A DNA stretch of 33,521 nt from Thiovulum sp. ES (GTDB lineage: Bacteria > Campylobacterota > Campylobacteria > Campylobacterales > Thiovulaceae), in contig AKKQ01000016.1 in the NCBI GenBank assembly GCA_000276965.1, positions 1 to 33,521 of the forward strand. Direction: 5' to 3'. The notes beneath the pieces are model-generated. The model did not search any database. It was given only the letters and a program-made list of their open reading frames with translations, and was not told the origin of the DNA. Of this stretch, positions 1,577 through 32,602 are shown one piece after another; the first letter of the stretch is position 1, and every line of letters begins with the position of its first letter. The position numbers and the translations under genes were made by a program.

Positions 1577-2686
1577 TTAGAAATGTTCTTTTAAAAGTTC
1601 AAATAATTGTGTAGATTGTTCCTCAAGAACTGCAATGTCCGTAAATAATCCGTTCTTAGTTAAAGCCTTTCCGCTGTCAATAAGTCTAAGATGTTCCAGC
1701 CCCTCTTTAGTTACTCGAACCCGATTTCCATCATAATATATGAGGTCTTGGTCTAACAACCAATCTAATAAGTCAGCCTTTCTAAACCCCTCTAAATCTA
1801 GTTGGTTAGCTTTCAAGAACTCGGAAGCTGAAATTAAGACCTCCTCTTTCTCTGACACCTCCATATCAATTAAAGATAAGAAGTTAATGTCTGTCTTGTA
1901 AATCCTTTTCATTTGAGTCTGTGCTGAGTGGTATGCCTGATTTCCCTTAATTCCAAATAGTTGGGCATATTGGACTAGACTGACATACAAAAACATATAT
2001 GCCTGAGACTCTGTCTTTGTCATCTGAACACCTGATGTCCGTGTTAAAAATGTCCCTCTCTTTTTAGAGATGTTAGCCAACATATCAAAAACCTCTTTAG
2101 TTCTGTCTTGTGTTAGTTCCGCAATCTCCTTATAAAACTCATCAGCCCAAACTGCTAATCTACTGTTAAATCCTTTTAAACGCCCCTCTACCTCTGTTGA
2201 AAGTTTATCTGTAAAAGTATCCAATCTATTAGACACATCTTGACTTAACCGTCCAAAACTCTCTGTTAATCTATACGATAAATCTTCAATCTGTTTGGAC
2301 TGAGTGGAAATAATCTGATTTAACTGCTCTTTCTGATTGTTGATAAGGTCTTTATCTACCTGAATATAATAAAGTCTAATGTAAAACCCTCTTTCTGTCT
2401 TACTAGACATCCCCAAATGTTTTACTGTATCTAATGTTCCGTAGTATTCCTTAGAAGCTCCTCTGTATTTTGTTGCCTTAACATCTATTACCCAGTAATC
2501 AAAGCCTTCCTGAAATCCATATGCTTCAATCTGTCTCTGAATCCACTGAGAAAATCTATCCTTGATTTCTAACCATTTATGCAAATCTCTAAGATTTACT
2601 AGTTCCTCTGTTACATTTACTGGAGACTTCATAGAACTTAAAGTTCCTTTAATCTCCTGTCTCACTTCTTCCGTTAAAACTAACAT
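1577..2686 (-). CDS. AntA-type phage antirepressor protein
   Basis: This 369-residue protein starts at an ATG preceded by AAAAGGTAG. Residues about 25-115 match the AntA/AntB antirepressor pattern: NLRDLHKWLEIKDRFSQWI, then QIEAYGFQEGFDYWV, then TLDTVKHLGMSSKTERG and an IRLYYIQVDK end. In this family the end is typically LDTAKELAM...RxYFIxxEK. A coiled coil (about 117-205) follows, then a helical region, then a C-terminal winged-helix-like stretch (FRKADLLDWLLDQDLIYYDG, about 299-318). Family members inactivate repressors and switch phage gene expression; that role here is inferred. It stands alone after a roughly 950-nt control region full of repeats and palindromes, which could contain its own operators. 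A regulatory gene placed among tail-fibre genes is unusual. Confidence 0.8.
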   Translation of the reverse strand: MLVLTEEVRQEIKGTLSSMKSPVNVTEELVNLRDLHKWLEIKDRFSQWIQRQIEAYGFQEGFDYWVIDVKATKYRGASKEYYGTLDTVKHLGMSSKTERGFYIRLYYIQVDKDLINNQKEQLNQIISTQSKQIEDLSYRLTESFGRLSQDVSNRLDTFTDKLSTEVEGRLKGFNSRLAVWADEFYKEIAELTQDRTKEVFDMLANISKKRGTFLTRTSGVQMTKTESQAYMFLYVSLVQYAQLFGIKGNQAYHSAQTQMKRIYKTDINFLSLIDMEVSEKEEVLISASEFLKANQLDLEGFRKADLLDWLLDQDLIYYDGNRVRVTKEGLEHLRLIDSGKALTKNGLFTDIAVLEEQSTQLFELLKEHF

Positions 2687-4580: not shown

Positions 4581-4599
4581 GACTCTAGGACTTAGAGTC
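4581..4599 (-). promoter_or_regulatory. Hairpin spanning the stop/start junction of two fibre genes
   Basis: GACTCTA (4581-4587) pairs with TAGAGTC (4593-4599). The hairpin includes the TAG stop of the upstream fibre gene and ends 8 nt before the ATG of the next one, where a ribosome binding site would be expected. Ribosomes finishing the first gene would open it, a typical arrangement for translational coupling. Confidence 0.4.
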
Positions 4600-5703
4600 G
4601 TCTCCCACAATATTATTATCTGTTCCGATTCCGTCATCCATAAATGACCCACTTAGAGTAGAGACACCGAATGACATTGGTGTCTTCTTGTTATGTTTGA
4701 TAGTTACCGAGACTTTTAGAGGCTCTAAAGAACAATCAATGACTTGAGGAACGATATGAACTCCTTTGCTTCTAGCTAGAATTACGAAGCCCTCCTCTGT
4801 TTTAGATGTAATATCTACTTGAGCTTGTGGGTTACCGATAACTGTTAAATCAATAGAGTAGTCATAGGCATTTAAGAATTCCCCGAAGCCCTCTACAGCC
4901 ATATTGAAGTTATAAGTTCCTGTTGAAGAGTTAATAGCAACTTCTTTACCATAAACTCTATTCATTGTATTTAGCTCATCAATTGCCGCATCGATAGATT
5001 TTAAAGCTTGTAGGTCTGTTCCTCTTAAAGTATCAATTAAAGCATTGACCTGTTGAATTCTCTGAGAAGCTTCACTATCTGTTTTATAGATGTCATCTAA
5101 AGCTGAAATTTTAGATTGAGCATCGTCTGCGACTTGTTTAACTTTCAACATGTTATTATGTAAAAGACCTACAACTCTGTTAATTTCAGAGGCTGTGTTC
5201 TCTGACTGTTCTGCATTCTTAGTTCTAATAACTGCTAGTTGAGTATTTAAACCTGAGATAAGCCCATCAAATGAACTTTGCAGATTAGACTTATTAGTAT
5301 CTGCCTCTGTTCTCAATTCTGTTAGTCTGTTATTCACTGAAGAAACTAAATCGGTAAAAGCCTTATCTGTATCTGTTCTTAAGTTAGCAACAGAACTTTT
5401 AATTTTATCCGAAAAATCTATTAGAACTGTATTAACATTATTAGTTAATGTATCAACATTTTTATTTAACCCGTCTTCTGTGGAGGGGTCAGAAGGCTTT
5501 ATCTTTGTGTAAGTTATAGTAGATAAAGTATCCATAGCAATCTCTCTAATAGTATTAGAAGAAACTGATTTAGCTTTATTATCTGTTGTGATAGTAACTC
5601 GATCTAAGTCTAAAGGAGCTGGAGATATTATACTCTCAGCAGAAGAAGGAGCAATCTCTGATAGATTTATTGTAGTTAAGGTTTCTAACTCTTCTTTAGT
5701 CAT
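4585..5703 (-). CDS. Coiled-coil tail fibre protein
   Basis: A 372-residue protein. Residues about 1-65 are Thr/Ser-rich, about 70-245 form long heptad-rich coiled coil (for example TLTNNVNTVLIDFSDKIKS), and the last 120 residues are predicted beta. Trimeric phage fibres have this shape: a shaft of coiled coil with a globular tip. It ends in TAG and is followed by a hairpin and the next fibre gene, so the two probably assemble together. No enzymatic motif is visible. The exact partner and position in the tail are not shown. Confidence 0.7.
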   Translation of the reverse strand: MTKEELETLTTINLSEIAPSSAESIISPAPLDLDRVTITTDNKAKSVSSNTIREIAMDTLSTITYTKIKPSDPSTEDGLNKNVDTLTNNVNTVLIDFSDKIKSSVANLRTDTDKAFTDLVSSVNNRLTELRTEADTNKSNLQSSFDGLISGLNTQLAVIRTKNAEQSENTASEINRVVGLLHNNMLKVKQVADDAQSKISALDDIYKTDSEASQRIQQVNALIDTLRGTDLQALKSIDAAIDELNTMNRVYGKEVAINSSTGTYNFNMAVEGFGEFLNAYDYSIDLTVIGNPQAQVDITSKTEEGFVILARSKGVHIVPQVIDCSLEPLKVSVTIKHNKKTPMSFGVSTLSGSFMDDGIGTDNNIVGDDSKS

Positions 5704-25660: not shown

Positions 25661-27745
25661 CTACTCGAAGAAATTAGATATAGCCATACTAAGACTTACA
25701 TCATCTACATTAGTCTTAGAAGGTTGAGGAGACTGATTAGTAGTAACTGTTTGAGGAGAGACTACTGAAGTAGATGTATTATAAATAGCATTAGACATTG
25801 TGTCTCCTAAAGATTGAAGTTTATCATTTACCGTGGATAACCATGAATTGTTTTCTGTATATTGAGGCACAGACTCTTTTACTGCTGAGTAAGTGTCAAT
25901 TAAATTAGTCTCATCTCTATTATTCAAAGTGTATCCTAGAGACTCTTTAGAGCTATTCTGTGCCACTTTGTCGCTATTTTCTACCATATTCTCTAAAGAC
26001 TCTAAGCTACTTATAGAGTTTAAAGGAGCTACACTAGATGTAGCCTCTATATTATTTTCTTCTGTATCGTCTCCTCCCCACCAACTAGATATAGAGTCTC
26101 CGACACTAGATAGCATAGAGATAGGTGCGTAGTCCATGAGCTTAGAACCAGTATCATGTATAAAGTTAGAAGATGTCTTAGAGTCTAATAAACCAAAAGA
26201 GAGGTCAGATAAAATCCCACCTGCAGAAGAAGATAGTTTTTGACCTAATGTAGCTTCTTGACCATCCTCTATGTCAAAATTAGTATTAGCATCATTCCAC
26301 CCTGACACTCCTGATATAGCTGTTGAGGTTAATAACCCTAGTGGCCCGAGAAATTTTGCCCCTTTAGATAAAATAGAAGCTCCTGAACCTGCCATCTTAG
26401 ATATAAGACTTGAACCAGATTTACTAGCACCAGATATTAGGTCTGAGGTGTCTGGAAGTAAGCCTCCTGAAAGTAGATCTGTTCCTAGAGATAATAGAGA
26501 AGAAGCTTTAGACCTCTTCTTATGTGAGAAAGGATGTACTCTATCTTTAGTAATAAAGTCTGACCTTGTATTATTTAAGCCTGAATGATAATTTTCTCTC
26601 GAGGTGTTAAATATGTTAGAGTGGTTGAAGGAAGTAATATCGCTACTGCTAGACCTACCCCTATGAGAATAGCTATTAATGCCCATATTGTGTAAAGTAT
26701 TACTAGAAACGCTCTCACTGTTAATGACATTGTTTAAACCTCTTTTCCTGAAAGCATTGCCTTCAATTTCTTTATTATGGTTAGTTTCAAAACCTGTATT
26801 TCTATGATTAGTATCCCTTAGAGGTGTGTCTGTGCTTCTATGATAATCTCTAGTATTTTCAGATAATCTAGTTTTAGATTTATCTAAAGCCCTACTTTCA
26901 GAGACGAACTTAGACTTTGTAGAACGATTATTACTATCTTTCCTTAAATCAATTAGACTAGAAGTGTAACTCTTAGTTGAATTTTGAGACTCTAGCTCTG
27001 TCTTTATATCTGTCAATAAGTCTTGCTGTATGAATCTATCTCTGTCAGCTTCTCTGCTATAAGTCTCAATATCTATTAATGTCTTTAAAGTCTGAACTAA
27101 TATAGATTGGGACTCTTCAGAAATGTCAAGATGGGAGTCTAGTTGGGGTTTTATATATTGAGACTGACTCTCTTTTGATGCTGTGTTTGAAGATAGCTCT
27201 TTTACAATGTTGTTAGAATTGTCAATTAAAGAACTAAGTTTAGCTTCAGAGTCCCTCGTATTGCTAATTTCCTTATTACTGTGTTCCATCATATTTGAAG
27301 TTTCATTATAAGCAGATTGCACCTCTACTAATGATAGAATTTTATCTGTATTCTTTTCAGCCTGTTTTTGGATTTCTTTTAAATTTTTAGAACTCTCTAG
27401 AGTCAATTCTGAGCTATCTAATCTCTGAGATATATATTCACTACTATTTTTATCAGACTTATCTCTGAGCTTATCTGAACTACTCTGAGACATATATTCA
27501 GAAATATATTTTACATACTCTTTATTAGTATATAAAACCTGTTTTAGAGACTTATCCATATTAGAAACTAAAAGTCTTATTGACTCCTTAGTATCTTTAA
27601 TTAGAGACTCCGAGGCATTTTCTCTGTCTTGATAATCTTCTTTATAGTTGAGGGTGGAAGAATTCTCAAGAGAAATAATTGGTGAAGATATATTCACTTT
27701 AGATAGTTCTTCCAACAAGTTGGTTGTAGATATGTTGAACTTCAT
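25661..27745 (-). CDS. Tail tape measure protein
   Basis: A 694-residue protein. Residues about 1-400 are helical, very Ser/Asn/Glu-rich coiled coil. About 410-560 contain the Gly/Leu/Ser-rich hydrophobic segment typical of tape measures (SLLSLGTDLLSGGLLPDTSD, AKFLGPLGLLTSTAISGVSG followed by WNDANTNFD). A short acidic and Ser-rich tail follows. Such proteins fill the tube, set its length and cross the host membrane. It starts at the TAATG overlap with the +1-frame ORF at 27745-27885 and has only a weak purine-rich site upstream, so it is probably translationally coupled. T4 gp29 is 590 aa, so the length is plausible. Confidence 0.75.
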   Translation of the reverse strand: MKFNISTTNLLEELSKVNISSPIISLENSSTLNYKEDYQDRENASESLIKDTKESIRLLVSNMDKSLKQVLYTNKEYVKYISEYMSQSSSDKLRDKSDKNSSEYISQRLDSSELTLESSKNLKEIQKQAEKNTDKILSLVEVQSAYNETSNMMEHSNKEISNTRDSEAKLSSLIDNSNNIVKELSSNTASKESQSQYIKPQLDSHLDISEESQSILVQTLKTLIDIETYSREADRDRFIQQDLLTDIKTELESQNSTKSYTSSLIDLRKDSNNRSTKSKFVSESRALDKSKTRLSENTRDYHRSTDTPLRDTNHRNTGFETNHNKEIEGNAFRKRGLNNVINSESVSSNTLHNMGINSYSHRGRSSSSDITSFNHSNIFNTSRENYHSGLNNTRSDFITKDRVHPFSHKKRSKASSLLSLGTDLLSGGLLPDTSDLISGASKSGSSLISKMAGSGASILSKGAKFLGPLGLLTSTAISGVSGWNDANTNFDIEDGQEATLGQKLSSSAGGILSDLSFGLLDSKTSSNFIHDTGSKLMDYAPISMLSSVGDSISSWWGGDDTEENNIEATSSVAPLNSISSLESLENMVENSDKVAQNSSKESLGYTLNNRDETNLIDTYSAVKESVPQYTENNSWLSTVNDKLQSLGDTMSNAIYNTSTSVVSPQTVTTNQSPQPSKTNVDDVSLSMAISNFFE

Positions 27746-27885
27746 TATTTATTTTCTTTCTGTTTTCTTTCGTTCATTAAGTATAAAAACATTTTAAGTT
27801 CTCCGTAATCCATGTTATCTAACTCTGTCAAGGTAAAACGGTATTTACTACTTAATAAGTCTAATTTTAGATTTGTCAGCCCCAT
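27745..27885 (-). CDS. +1-frame C-terminal extension of gp26-like protein, or small overlapping chaperone gene
   Basis: An open frame overlaps the end of the gp26-like gene in the +1 frame. It can be read from an ATG at 27883-27885, but no ribosome binding site precedes that. The protein (TNLKLDLLSSKYRFTLTELD, then NMDYGELKMFLYLMNERKQK and ENK) is helical and clearly protein-like, and its stop overlaps the tape measure ATG. In the main frame GAT GGG GCT contains GGGG at 27880-27883; a +1 slip of the Gly-GGG tRNA, or one extra G by sequencing error, joins the frames into a 298-residue protein. An ORF at this point, right before the tape measure, is where tail assembly chaperone frameshifts occur in other phages. 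Confidence 0.6.
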   Translation of the reverse strand: MGLTNLKLDLLSSKYRFTLTELDNMDYGELKMFLYLMNERKQKENK

Positions 27886-28642
27886 CAGAGACAGATTTGG
27901 AAGTAATATATTCTCTGATATTCTTAAAGGGTATTAGAGATGTGTGTCCGCACTCTTTAGTTTTACAAACTGCTTCTACTGGATTTACATCATGATATAA
28001 ATGTCTGTCAATCTCGTTTATCGCCTCTATATCTTCTTTATCTGACAGATTGTATAGAAAGTTGTAAATATTCCCAAAAGGTTCTTCTGTATCAACTTGT
28101 AAAGCCATGACACTTACATCAGTTTCGTATTTATCTGACAAGGCTAGTTTAGTTTTATAGCCTTTCACAGTTAGAGGTGTAAAAGTTAAAGTTTGAGAGT
28201 TTATATCTGCTTCAATAAGCTTAACCTCCAAGTCTTTAAATTCAATTTGTGTGGTTAGATTTACTGTTCTATTATGAGTCTTGCCACACTTAGGGCATTT
28301 CCAAGTTAATGTTAGTTCTGAATCGTCCCCTAAAGTAGATATTTGTCTTAGAACTGACAAATAGTTGAAATCTGCTAAAGTTAGCATTTCCTTAGACATG
28401 CCTTTCACAAATATTCCGCTAAGAATAATATCCACTCTTCTAATGTTTAAAGCTGTGGTAGTATCCTTTGGTATTTGTGAAATCTTATATAGCTCACCTA
28501 GTATATACGGTCGATAAGATATTTCAATATTATTAGGGTATGTAAAGCCTCTTGAGGGGAGTGTGGAAGGTTCAATAGGTATGTCTATTGTAGAAGATAA
28601 GCTATAAGAAGCATCTTCTAATACTTTTCCAGTAAAGTTCAT
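27848..28642 (-). CDS. Baseplate hub/assembly protein, gp26-like, with zinc ribbon
   Basis: A 264-residue protein in this frame. The N-terminal region (TLPSRGFTYPNNIEISYRPY, ELYKISQI, LNIRRVDIILSGI) resembles the T4 gp26-type baseplate protein family. Four cysteines (Cys116, Cys119 in WKCPKCGKTH; Cys226, Cys231 in CKTKECGH) form a probable zinc ribbon. The frame ends in TAG just after KSKIRLIK, but helical C-terminal sequence continues in the +1 frame to the tape measure start. In phages the gene before the tape measure commonly encodes assembly chaperones, so this protein may act in tape measure loading or hub assembly. GP26 identity is moderately supported. Confidence 0.65.
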   Translation of the reverse strand: MNFTGKVLEDASYSLSSTIDIPIEPSTLPSRGFTYPNNIEISYRPYILGELYKISQIPKDTTTALNIRRVDIILSGIFVKGMSKEMLTLADFNYLSVLRQISTLGDDSELTLTWKCPKCGKTHNRTVNLTTQIEFKDLEVKLIEADINSQTLTFTPLTVKGYKTKLALSDKYETDVSVMALQVDTEEPFGNIYNFLYNLSDKEDIEAINEIDRHLYHDVNPVEAVCKTKECGHTSLIPFKNIREYITSKSVSDGADKSKIRLIK

Positions 28643-28654
28643 ATTATTCCTTTT

Positions 28655-29164
28655 CTAGTCTTTATAGAAAACCTTACCTATTACATTTAGATTTACTGTA
28701 AATTCCTTAGATTTAGCATTAGAAGATAACTTATCTGATAGTCTTTGTATAGGATAGACCACATACTTTTCTGTATGTAGTATCTCTTTCAAAGAATTAA
28801 GTTTAAATATAAAGACCTCTCTTAGAACACCCTCTTCACCGATTGTAGCTACTCCGTCCTCTGCATATATCTGGTCTAGCCAGTCTTTAAACCATAGATA
28901 AATAGTCCCTAGCTCATCATCAATAAATGTTATAGAGATATTAGGAAAAGACTGGCTCTTAGGAATTTCAAAAGAACCTAAAGGATATTCAATTGTATAA
29001 AGACTGTCTGCGGAATACTCTATTTCCACCGATGTAGCAGGGAATATATCTAAGTTTCCGTCTTCTCTAGCGGATAGAGGAGGGGCATTTAAGAACTGTA
29101 TGTCCCATGTATGTTCGCTCCCCCACCGAACATCTCTTATTTGAGATAGTGTAGGGAACGGCAT
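28655..29164 (-). CDS. Second tail-tube-like protein
   Basis: A 169-residue protein starting MPFPTLSQIRDVRWGSEHTW, whose pattern (short lead, WDIQF, FPATSVEIEY, GSFEIPKSQSFPNISITFID, then WLDQI and VYPIQRLSD) follows the gp19-like tube fold also seen in the tube protein at 30017. Such a paralogue is typical of tube cap or tube initiator proteins, which differ from the major tube subunit. Its ATG overlaps the stop of the upstream fibre-like gene (TAATG). Whether it forms part of the tube or a hub layer is not shown. Confidence 0.65.
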   Translation of the reverse strand: MPFPTLSQIRDVRWGSEHTWDIQFLNAPPLSAREDGNLDIFPATSVEIEYSADSLYTIEYPLGSFEIPKSQSFPNISITFIDDELGTIYLWFKDWLDQIYAEDGVATIGEEGVLREVFIFKLNSLKEILHTEKYVVYPIQRLSDKLSSNAKSKEFTVNLNVIGKVFYKD

Positions 29165-30016: not shown

Positions 30017-30541
30017 TTATACGGATTTACCGTCAGTGAATTTATCATACCAAAGAGTGAGACTTAATTCAATTTTATCAGGTTCGTTAGCCATAGACCC
30101 AGGGTCGTAATCTTTTAGATAAACTCCTAACAGTTTGTATTGCCATATTGGATTATCCTGCACATCTAATCTAGATAGAATTAGAATAGCCTCTATATCT
30201 TCTTTTTTGTTCTGTTTCCCTGTCTCATAATCATAACAAGCATCTCGCCATGACTTAATAAGACTATGAATTACAGAGTCCTCTGTTTCAACTAAAGTGA
30301 GAGTTAGTTCATGGTCAAAATCGTATGTCCCTGGTTGTCCGACATGCATACCTCGTATATCTACCTCAATTCCTGCTTTCTCTGTAATCTTAGGAACTGA
30401 AGAAGTAGTGCAACGGAAATTTACATCTTCACTGTCTGGATAATCCCCCACATTAGGAAACTTAGCGAATGTTATCATCCATCTGTTCTGATTAGCAAAT
30501 GTTCCTAGATTTCTTATCTCGTTGTATCCTGGTCTAGCCAT
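30017..30541 (-). CDS. Major tail tube protein, gp19-like
   Basis: A 174-residue protein with an excellent ribosome binding site (AAAGGAG, 9 nt before ATG). The gp19/tube fold is visible: ANQNRWMITFAKFPNVGDYP, CTTSSVPKITEKAGIEVDI, then GQPGTYDFDHELTLTLVETE and LSLTLWYDKF at the C-terminus. It forms hexameric rings of the inner tube around the tape measure. It follows the sheath gene by 18 nt, the order of nearly all contractile phages. The length matches T4 gp19 (163 aa). Confidence 0.9.
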   Translation of the reverse strand: MARPGYNEIRNLGTFANQNRWMITFAKFPNVGDYPDSEDVNFRCTTSSVPKITEKAGIEVDIRGMHVGQPGTYDFDHELTLTLVETEDSVIHSLIKSWRDACYDYETGKQNKKEDIEAILILSRLDVQDNPIWQYKLLGVYLKDYDPGSMANEPDKIELSLTLWYDKFTDGKSV

Positions 30542-30559: not shown

Positions 30560-32602
30560 TTATACTGCACTCGCCGCAGTCTTGAAATCCATGCCTGTTC
30601 TAGTAACAACTACCGTAGTTTCTACATATTCAATAGATTGAGTAGGTTTTACTAATAACATTAGATTTAGTTTATGATTATCAATATCTTCAGCTGTGTT
30701 GTTAGTGCTGTCGCAAATAACCTGATAGTCATAAACCCCTTTCCTAGCTTTAATAGACTCCATAAACGAATCGACAATAGATTTAGCAATTGTCCTTGTT
30801 TCTGATGTGTTAAGCTCGAATTTAAAAGTTTCTAAGGCAATAGATACTGCTTCTTCGACCACAATCAACATTAGACGGACATTTAGTCTATCTAAAGAAC
30901 TAGCATATGCTTGTAATGTTTTTTGACCCTCTACTGTAATTCCTTGACCAGTCATATATTTCAATGGATTGATTCGATTGTCATATAAAGCATCTAGTTC
31001 GCCATCAGTATATCGTCTCATTAAGTCTAAAGCATTGACTTTACCTCGTTTAGAACCACCGACTGGATACCATAGCTCATAATTGTCAGCTGTCTTACTT
31101 AATAAAGCACCTACAATTCCTGATGGAGAGATATAAATTTCCCTGTCATTATCTTTATCATAGACTTTAACATGAGGGGAGTATATCGCGGCATAGCTAG
31201 TATTAGGATTGAAGTCTTCGTTTATCCACTTTAAAGTATCAACCATATAGTTGTAAGATTGAAGAATATCTTGAGGAGCTGATAGAATAGCAATACAGTC
31301 TTTTCTAGTCTCTGCAATATCAATTAGATGTTTCTGAAAAGGAGTAAAGGTTAAACCTCCGTCCATGATAAGTCTCAATTTGATACTTTGCTTAGCTTTT
31401 AATCTATCAGCGGCTTTCATTAAATCGCCTGTGCTTACTCCTGTTCCGTCGTCTCCACCTGATAAAGGCACGGGTGTAATAATAACCTCTCCGTTTAGAT
31501 TAGTCTTTAAATCCATCGGCATATAGGTTTCATCGACTAAAGGATTATTTACTGCACGAATAAATCCTGACCTTTTTAGAACATCTTCAATGTATAACGA
31601 TTTCTTGTATCCGTCTTTCATACCCTCAATTCTAGAGACAATAAATGTTTCGACAGGATTGTTTAAATCTGAACCTTTAAAGACATCAATTAAGAAAGCC
31701 TTTTTAGAAGATGGTTCTTTTATCCTTGAGTCTTTCGTAGAAATAGCTATATGAACATTATTAGCCCATGAACCTACACTTGAAGCATGTATTAAGAAAG
31801 CAGTGTCTGCTGGTAGCTGTAATCCCTCAGGATAGACAGTAGCCCCCTCTAGTTTAGAATGCCTATTCTCATTTTTAGTATAAGCATCAGACACGGATGT
31901 TGAGGTTAGAATTCCCTCTTCATCGGAATTATGCTTTATCAAAATAGAAGAATAGACTGCACCATCTCCATGTTCAAATGCCTCTTTCATTGTTCCTTTA
32001 GCCTGTAATGTTCCTAATGAGCCTGAGGTGTTAGAGTCGTATTTTACATTAAAGTATTTAGATGTGAAATTTACTGAAGACTCAATGTCCTCTAAGACAA
32101 TATTATCGATAGTTTCTAGGGCTGTGCCTGTATCGTCATCATATACTGTAATAGCAAGGTCTTTAGTGTTGTCAGTAGGACTATGAACACTAATGTCTAA
32201 GTTATTATAGTATCTACCAGCATTTATAGCATGAATTACAAATATTTCACCGTCTTGGAATGTATGCTCAAAGGGATAAAGATGCTTAGTAGCTCTAGCA
32301 TTCCCCGTAGTAGAGTTTTCATAAACTAACCCTGCAATCTTTGGAGAAGCAGTAGCACGACTGACCCATAATTTATTAGAACCGTAGAGATATTGAAGAG
32401 CTGAGAAGTAGGATAAGTCCATACCTACTGTTACTTTTTCGTTAGCTGTGTATTCCCTTAAGAATTGAGTTTCACCTGTTACTAGACCTATTTCTGCACC
32501 TTTAGAAGCTGGTAGGACGATACCACCATAGACCCCTCCTTGCATCTGCACTCTAGTAGATAAGTCAATTTCTCGTATTGTTGATTTAGGTGCTCCGCTC
32601 AT
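30560..32602 (-). CDS. Tail sheath protein, gp18-like
   Basis: A 680-residue protein. The N-terminal arm (PKSTIREIDLSTRVQ), the following GGIVLPASKGAEIG strand and the C-terminal sheath domain (about 565-680: LDRLNVRLMLIVVEEAVSIA, CDSTNNTAEDIDNHKLNL and VKPTQSIEYVETTVV) match the phage sheath families. The sheath contracts to drive the tube into the host. It is close in length to T4 gp18 (659 aa). The start overlaps the small upstream gene by ATGA and has AAGG 10 nt before. Middle domains with repeated HAxxxGxWxNN and DxND turns form the outer surface. Confidence 0.95.
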   Translation of the reverse strand: MSGAPKSTIREIDLSTRVQMQGGVYGGIVLPASKGAEIGLVTGETQFLREYTANEKVTVGMDLSYFSALQYLYGSNKLWVSRATASPKIAGLVYENSTTGNARATKHLYPFEHTFQDGEIFVIHAINAGRYYNNLDISVHSPTDNTKDLAITVYDDDTGTALETIDNIVLEDIESSVNFTSKYFNVKYDSNTSGSLGTLQAKGTMKEAFEHGDGAVYSSILIKHNSDEEGILTSTSVSDAYTKNENRHSKLEGATVYPEGLQLPADTAFLIHASSVGSWANNVHIAISTKDSRIKEPSSKKAFLIDVFKGSDLNNPVETFIVSRIEGMKDGYKKSLYIEDVLKRSGFIRAVNNPLVDETYMPMDLKTNLNGEVIITPVPLSGGDDGTGVSTGDLMKAADRLKAKQSIKLRLIMDGGLTFTPFQKHLIDIAETRKDCIAILSAPQDILQSYNYMVDTLKWINEDFNPNTSYAAIYSPHVKVYDKDNDREIYISPSGIVGALLSKTADNYELWYPVGGSKRGKVNALDLMRRYTDGELDALYDNRINPLKYMTGQGITVEGQKTLQAYASSLDRLNVRLMLIVVEEAVSIALETFKFELNTSETRTIAKSIVDSFMESIKARKGVYDYQVICDSTNNTAEDIDNHKLNLMLLVKPTQSIEYVETTVVVTRTGMDFKTAASAV

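Follow-up and report, generated by a model that had tools for sequence, protein, structure and literature searches.

The window, as we term the whole 33,521-nucleotide stretch of Thiovulum sp. ES DNA analysed here (contig AKKQ01000016.1, positions 1 to 33,521), very probably encodes the tail assembly chaperones of a contractile phage of the T4 superfamily, with a +1 frameshift joining a gp26-like protein to an open reading frame in the +1 frame. The gene is laid out in two overlapping frames, this layout is conserved in relatives, and both of its parts have recognizable homologs. The frameshift had been proposed in an initial annotation of this DNA. It is supported by the conserved layout, by an extension homologous to the C-terminal part of T4 gp51 and by a second frame that offers no usable start, and the exact site proposed for it, GGG_G, is a plausible candidate. 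The function is ordinary; it is the detail of the decoding that is unusual. The features used in this analysis are:

30560..32602, minus strand: tail sheath protein, gp18-type (phrog_23, E=7e-73; PF17482, PF04984)
30017..30541, minus strand: tail tube protein, gp19-type (phrog_45, E=1e-19)
28655..29164, minus strand: second tube-like protein, immediately 5' of TAC-N (phrog_1842, E=4e-6; phrog_45, E=2.5e-4)
27848..28642, minus strand: TAC-N, the gp26-like short form in the 0 frame, 264 aa (PF12322, phrog_150)
27745..27933, minus strand: +1-frame open region from stop to stop, containing TAC-C, the C-terminal extension of the putative long form (reading frames, extension HMM, phrog_150 alignment)
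27928..27931, minus strand: CCC_U (in CCC TTT AAG), alternative candidate +1 slip site at the 5' limit of the open +1 frame (sequence)
27893..27901, minus strand: TCC_AAA_TCT, position homologous to the CCN_TTT_CGY of relatives, with AAA_U as an alternative slip (TAC-N flank protein alignment, extension profile)
27883..27885, minus strand: ATG, the start if the +1 frame were a separate gene (sequence)
27880..27883, minus strand: GGG_G, preferred candidate +1 slip site, GAT GGG G/CT being read as GGG CTG after the slip (sequence)
27743..27747, minus strand: TAATG, the TAC-C stop overlapping the tape-measure start (sequence)
25661..27745, minus strand: tape-measure-like protein, 694 aa, with a weak Shine-Dalgarno (SD) sequence (place after the chaperone; phrog_26249 of unknown function, E=2e-8)

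The tail module lies entirely on the minus strand, in the order sheath, tube, two small genes, second tube-like protein, gp26-like protein and tape-measure-like protein. An anti-repressor-like protein is found at the end of the module (window 1577-2686; phrog_5817, E=1e-28). Most other genes of the window match known families weakly, and a protein of unknown function at 4585-5703 stands apart by matching phrog_20948 very strongly (E=4e-155).

The gp26-like open reading frame (28642-27848, minus strand) encodes 264 aa with two CxxC-type metal sites and ends in a TAG at 27850-27848. It recovered the PF12322 (T4_baseplate) profile with E=6e-9 and 36.3 bits, above the curated cut-off of 24.5, and phrog_150 (baseplate hub) with E=4e-17 and 63.4 bits. 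An AlphaFold model of this short form (pLDDT 84, pTM 0.80) drew predicted T4-type baseplate hub and gp51-like proteins in BFVD; a fold search of the PDB gave nothing significant. T4 gp26 and gp51 both belong to PF12322/phrog_150, with gp26 covering positions 14-235 of phrog_150 and gp51 positions 13-280; since gp51 covers the C-terminus of the profile and gp26 does not, gp51 corresponds to the long form and gp26 to the short form. The gp26-like protein is the only phrog_150 match in the whole genome bin, and thus no separate long-form gene is seen.

As the initial annotation had described, the +1 frame continues past the TAG and runs into a TAATG shared with the tape measure, and both points are borne out by the reading frames. 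The +1 frame is open from stop to stop over 62 codons (27933-27745, minus strand), with its TAA at 27747-27745 sharing the TAATG with the tape-measure ATG at 27745-27743, so that an overlapping open reading frame lies directly upstream of the tape measure, as in the G/GT type of chaperone. When the tail of the gp26-like gene was recoded synonymously using the phage's own codon usage, the +1 frame remained open over its first 27 codons from 27933 in only 0.9% of recodings. Furthermore, of the 17 gene ends in the window, that of the gp26-like gene alone is flanked by a long open +1 stretch before as well as after its stop (28 codons upstream and 34 downstream). By comparison with the relatives described below, the conserved part of the extension spans about 27894-27748. 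Against a profile built from the relatives it scored 14.8-15.9 bits (the best of 200 shuffles reached 5.8), the match running through TLTELDNMDYGELKMFLYLMNERKQKENK; this HMM match is limited to the last ~29 residues, with the N-terminal part marginal (P=0.015). In the phrog_150 alignment the fusion product covered positions 6-278 of 282 with 67.2 bits and the short form positions 5-243 with 63.4 bits; the conceptual long form thus acquires a gp51-type C-terminus, with a small gain of 3.8 bits. A -1 poly-T shift of the T4-like type was also sought, and the window does not show its combination of a U_UUU_UUN-type heptamer and a -1 open reading frame, the -1 frame being open for only 1 codon before the stop and 6 after it.

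The initial annotation had proposed a comparison of the junction in related phages, and this comparison revealed that the two-frame +1 layout is conserved in 39 phage or contig sequences, 33 of which were found by searches blind to the junction motif, and this lends strong support to a programmed +1 frameshift. A tblastn search with the gp26-like protein against phage records yielded 26 records at 24-29% identity, from phages of Rhizobium, Pseudomonas, Vibrio, Escherichia, Thermus and Acinetobacter. In the first seven junctions examined, P-F-R is encoded close to the C-terminus in the 0 frame (CCN TTT CGT), and from there the +1 frame goes on (C CCT TTC GTN) into a short extension. A pattern scan of IMG/VR added 24 further true homologs, and motif-blind protein-based scans contributed additional ones and recovered many of those already found. 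The total comprises 37 tabulated relatives, one sequence found through the extension pattern (L190) and one from a Deferribacterales bin (L204), which is the nearest to the window (37% identity; site AAA_TTT_CGT). Searches of 100 related genomes, 298 genomes of the phylum and viral contigs detected no close relative of the window.

The junction is NNN_UUU_CGY in all 39 relatives, and the extension of ~43-74 residues ends near the next gene. All 37 tabulated relatives conform to CCN_TTT_CG[T/C], with CCC (26), CCG (9) or CCT (1) before TTT_CGT and a single CCC before TTT_CGC; elsewhere in these genes TTT accounts for 57% of the other Phe codons and CGY for 31% of the other Arg codons. It should be noted that these sequences are mutually related, a few being near-identical, and the site counts are given without formal P values. 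The extensions share the motif V....LL...F.LA....V......mDy.Ev, and between close relatives the substitutions past the 0-frame stop fall mostly in third positions of the +1 frame. A sequence HMM of the +1 extensions did not significantly match the extensions of T4 gp51, cyanophages or phage RM378, and only phrog_150 links them. Some family members depart from the common junction: Vibrio phage Va2 (L094) is an exception without PFR and a second natural variant of the site, retaining a clear +1 extension after a TTT CCC TAT (UUU_CCC_U) junction. In RM378 (L106) and CP21 (L111), the gp26/gp51-type genes have their +1 extensions close to T-rich sites other than UUU_CGY (TCC TTT TTT TGG and ATA TTT TAC, respectively).

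The +1 open reading frame could alternatively be a separate gene, initiated at the ATG at 27885 or at another internal start, that makes a free small protein of at most 46 aa. Such an ATG does exist, and a separate small gene is annotated at the extension in several relatives. However, the ATG at 27885 lacks a Shine-Dalgarno sequence (0 kcal/mol, where the other genes tested typically reach -4), and in the relatives conservation of the extension sets in at the slip site, before any good start is reached. In several of them (L053, L054, L057 and L063) the extension contains no ATG at all, and a separate gene with a usual start therefore does not explain these cases. In T4 gp51, moreover, the corresponding part is fused to a gp26-type domain. 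Hence this alternative, which the initial annotation had raised, appears improbable. The same annotation had considered an assembly with one G too many, the true gene being a single in-frame long form. The junction does contain a homopolymer and the window is a single contig of a genome bin, but relatives as a rule have the two-frame +1 layout, the 0-frame tail past the junction keeps the family pattern (KIRLI in the window against RIRFG in the relatives), and an in-frame fusion would abolish the short form, of which the bin shows no second copy. We accordingly regard a sequence error as highly improbable.

The +1 frameshift being the preferred reading, its position within the overlap was examined. 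The UUU_CGY of the relatives is absent from the overlap of the window: the homologous position reads UCC_AAA_UCU (27901-27893), with a CCC_TTT_AAG upstream. This placement of the relatives' site at 27901-27893 follows from the alignment of the TAC-N flank, from the agreement of the 0-frame tails after the junction (KIRLI and RIRFG) and from the best register of the extension profile, which is LSLMGLTNLKLDLL at 27894 (score 0.79, P=0.015). CCC_TTT_AAG had been favored by eye as the direct homolog of the relatives' site; it was rejected as the +1 residues that follow it misfit the profile (0.28 given the open frame) and the best register lies at 27901-27893. The GAT GGG GCT with its GGGG at 27883-27880, as pointed out in the initial annotation, is present in the sequence, and GGG_G is the perfect +1 re-pairing site nearest to the homologous position, 15 nt downstream of it. 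We consider GGG_G, where the tRNA-Gly in the P site would shift by one base onto the overlapping GGG, to be the most likely slip site in the window, at roughly even chances. A further perfect +1 re-pairing site, AAA_A, is found nearby (27868-27865). GGG had been expected to be a rare codon, but it makes up 65 of the 322 Gly codons (20%). The tetranucleotide GGG_G is found in frame 13 times among 7700 codons, including once more within the gp26-like gene itself, and its chance occurrence in the 27-codon overlap (P about 0.045) is weak evidence by itself. In the bin of the presumed host, from which 30 of 33 tRNA loci were extracted, we found tRNA-Gly with UCC and GCC anticodons and tRNA-Pro with UGG, and no tRNA-Gly(CCC). 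With only these tRNAs, both GGG and CCC are presumably read by wobble, which may favor +1 slippage.

The +1 shift might also occur elsewhere in the same overlap, for which we would allow somewhat less than even chances, either at CCC_U (27931-27928, read by the wobbling tRNA-Pro UGG) or at AAA_U (27898-27895), the homolog of the relatives' UUU_C. That the relatives' site maps to 27901-27893, 15 nt upstream of GGG_G, favors a slip other than at GGG_G, although at AAA_U the re-pairing of AAA on AAU would be imperfect. CCC_U is a classical +1 tetranucleotide, and several observations are in its favor: CCC is rare in the phage (14 of 182 Pro codons), with tRNA-Pro UGG alone seen in the bin for its decoding, in-frame CCC_U is itself infrequent (7 in 7700 codons), the open +1 frame starts 2 nt upstream of it, and Va2, the other exception, reads UUU_CCC_U. 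In addition, MAFFT alignments with many relatives, at variance with the placement above, pair the PF of the window with the PF of the relatives. However, a slip at this position would imply that part of the metal-binding hairpin is deleted, and the misfit of the +1 residues that follow it also counts against CCC_U.

No conserved downstream RNA structure that could stimulate the shift was detected (mean z of -0.46 in the relatives and -0.11 in the window). On the upstream side, 23 of the 33 distinct relatives carry a strong SD-like stretch (<= -6.5 kcal/mol) at a distance of 13-28 nt from the CCN codon, versus 8.3% of background windows, the mean energies being -8.2 kcal/mol for the relatives and -4.3 kcal/mol for the background. 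This GGAGG-like element is positioned about 19-25 nt upstream of CCN_TTT_CGT (for example, in L002, L004 and L049) and occurs in all three codon registers; hence, a single protein motif does not explain it. Known stimulators of shifting act at spacings of about 3 nt (+1) or 10-14 nt (-1), and the element of the relatives is spaced otherwise. In the window, a scan of the region upstream of CCC_TTT_AAG did not find the element (best -3.2 kcal/mol). The tape-measure gene of the window is itself almost devoid of a Shine-Dalgarno sequence (-0.3 kcal/mol), whereas a normal one is present there in most relatives. Given this near-absence and the start within the TAATG, translation of the tape measure may depend on the shifted ribosomes.

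We infer the slip itself, and propose the following scheme for where and how efficiently it occurs and for what the two forms do. Most ribosomes would stop at the TAG of the gp26-like gene and release the short form, TAC-N, and a fraction would slip +1 within the 28-codon overlap, adding about 45-60 residues to give a long form, TAC-NC, whose C-terminal part would match that of T4 gp51. If lambda gpG/gpGT is a guide, many copies of the short form and few of the long one would cover the tape measure and bring in the tube subunits. As a tentative scenario for the family, a widespread T4-type clade could slip +1 on a PA-X-like UUU_CGY with an SD-like element ~20 nt upstream; the window would have lost this cassette and slip at GGG_G or CCC_U in the same overlap, and synthesis of its tape measure may be coupled to the rare shifted ribosomes. 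The relatives provide a bacterial set of UUU_CGY +1 sites with a distant SD-like element. Many phage genomes have a separate small gene annotated at the extension, or a gap left in its place, and a joined feature would put this right.

The arrangement resembles lambda gpG/gpGT in its place directly 5' of the tape measure, in its short and long forms and in a shift close to the 3' end (Xu, Hendrix and Duda 2004; PMC5009743), but the lambda shift is -1 and involves another protein family, in contrast to the +1 layout of the window. A 2016 review described the chaperone frameshift as conserved, naming T4 as the exception, and listed UUU_Ynn as +1-prone in bacteria (PMC5009743). UCC_UUU_CGU is the +1 site of influenza A PA-X (PMC3498833), and a TTT-CGC site has been proposed for the HF1-group haloarchaeal viruses at the chaperone/tape-measure junction (PMC7230728). 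The relatives of the window share the UUU_CGY core and the +1 direction with both, and with HF1 also the junction; they differ in having the additional SD-like element about 19-25 nt upstream, and the window differs in having no UUU_CGY. We found no report of a +1 UUU_CGY site in the gp26-type family in the literature, where the 2022 study of Vladimirov et al. is represented by papers that cite it; by the literature found, a +1 shift on UUU_CGY combined with an SD-like element farther 5' seems new in T4-type phages.

Frameshifting as such is not new to gp26-type proteins, for which the initial annotation had cited none. According to the accounts in PMC12846349 and PMC10885494, work published in 2022 identified the PF12322 proteins of T4-like phages as tail assembly chaperones, with -1 poly-T shifts in several groups, T4 gp26 being the short chaperone TAC-N and gp51 the long chaperone TAC-NC (Vladimirov, Gautam and Davidson 2022, Virology 566:9, as cited there), in agreement with the phrog_150 coverage of the two proteins. 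The gp26-type genes of cyanophage S-RIM8 (L101) and Vibrio phage 6E35-1b (L104) end in T_TTT_TTC (U_UUU_UUC) with a -1 extension; in S-RIM8, the small annotated gp51, a cyanophage protein noted as truncated in 2010 (PMC3037559), belongs to this extension. Like T4, Campylobacter phage CJLB-7 carries two copies. The window shares the PF12322/phrog_150 family with T4, its extension corresponding to the C-terminus of gp51, but T4 makes the two forms from separate genes whereas the window has one gene plus a +1 frame. One protein family thus presents three routes to the same protein pair, namely a -1 slip, a +1 slip and gene duplication, and offers a natural series for how recoding signals are gained, swapped and lost.
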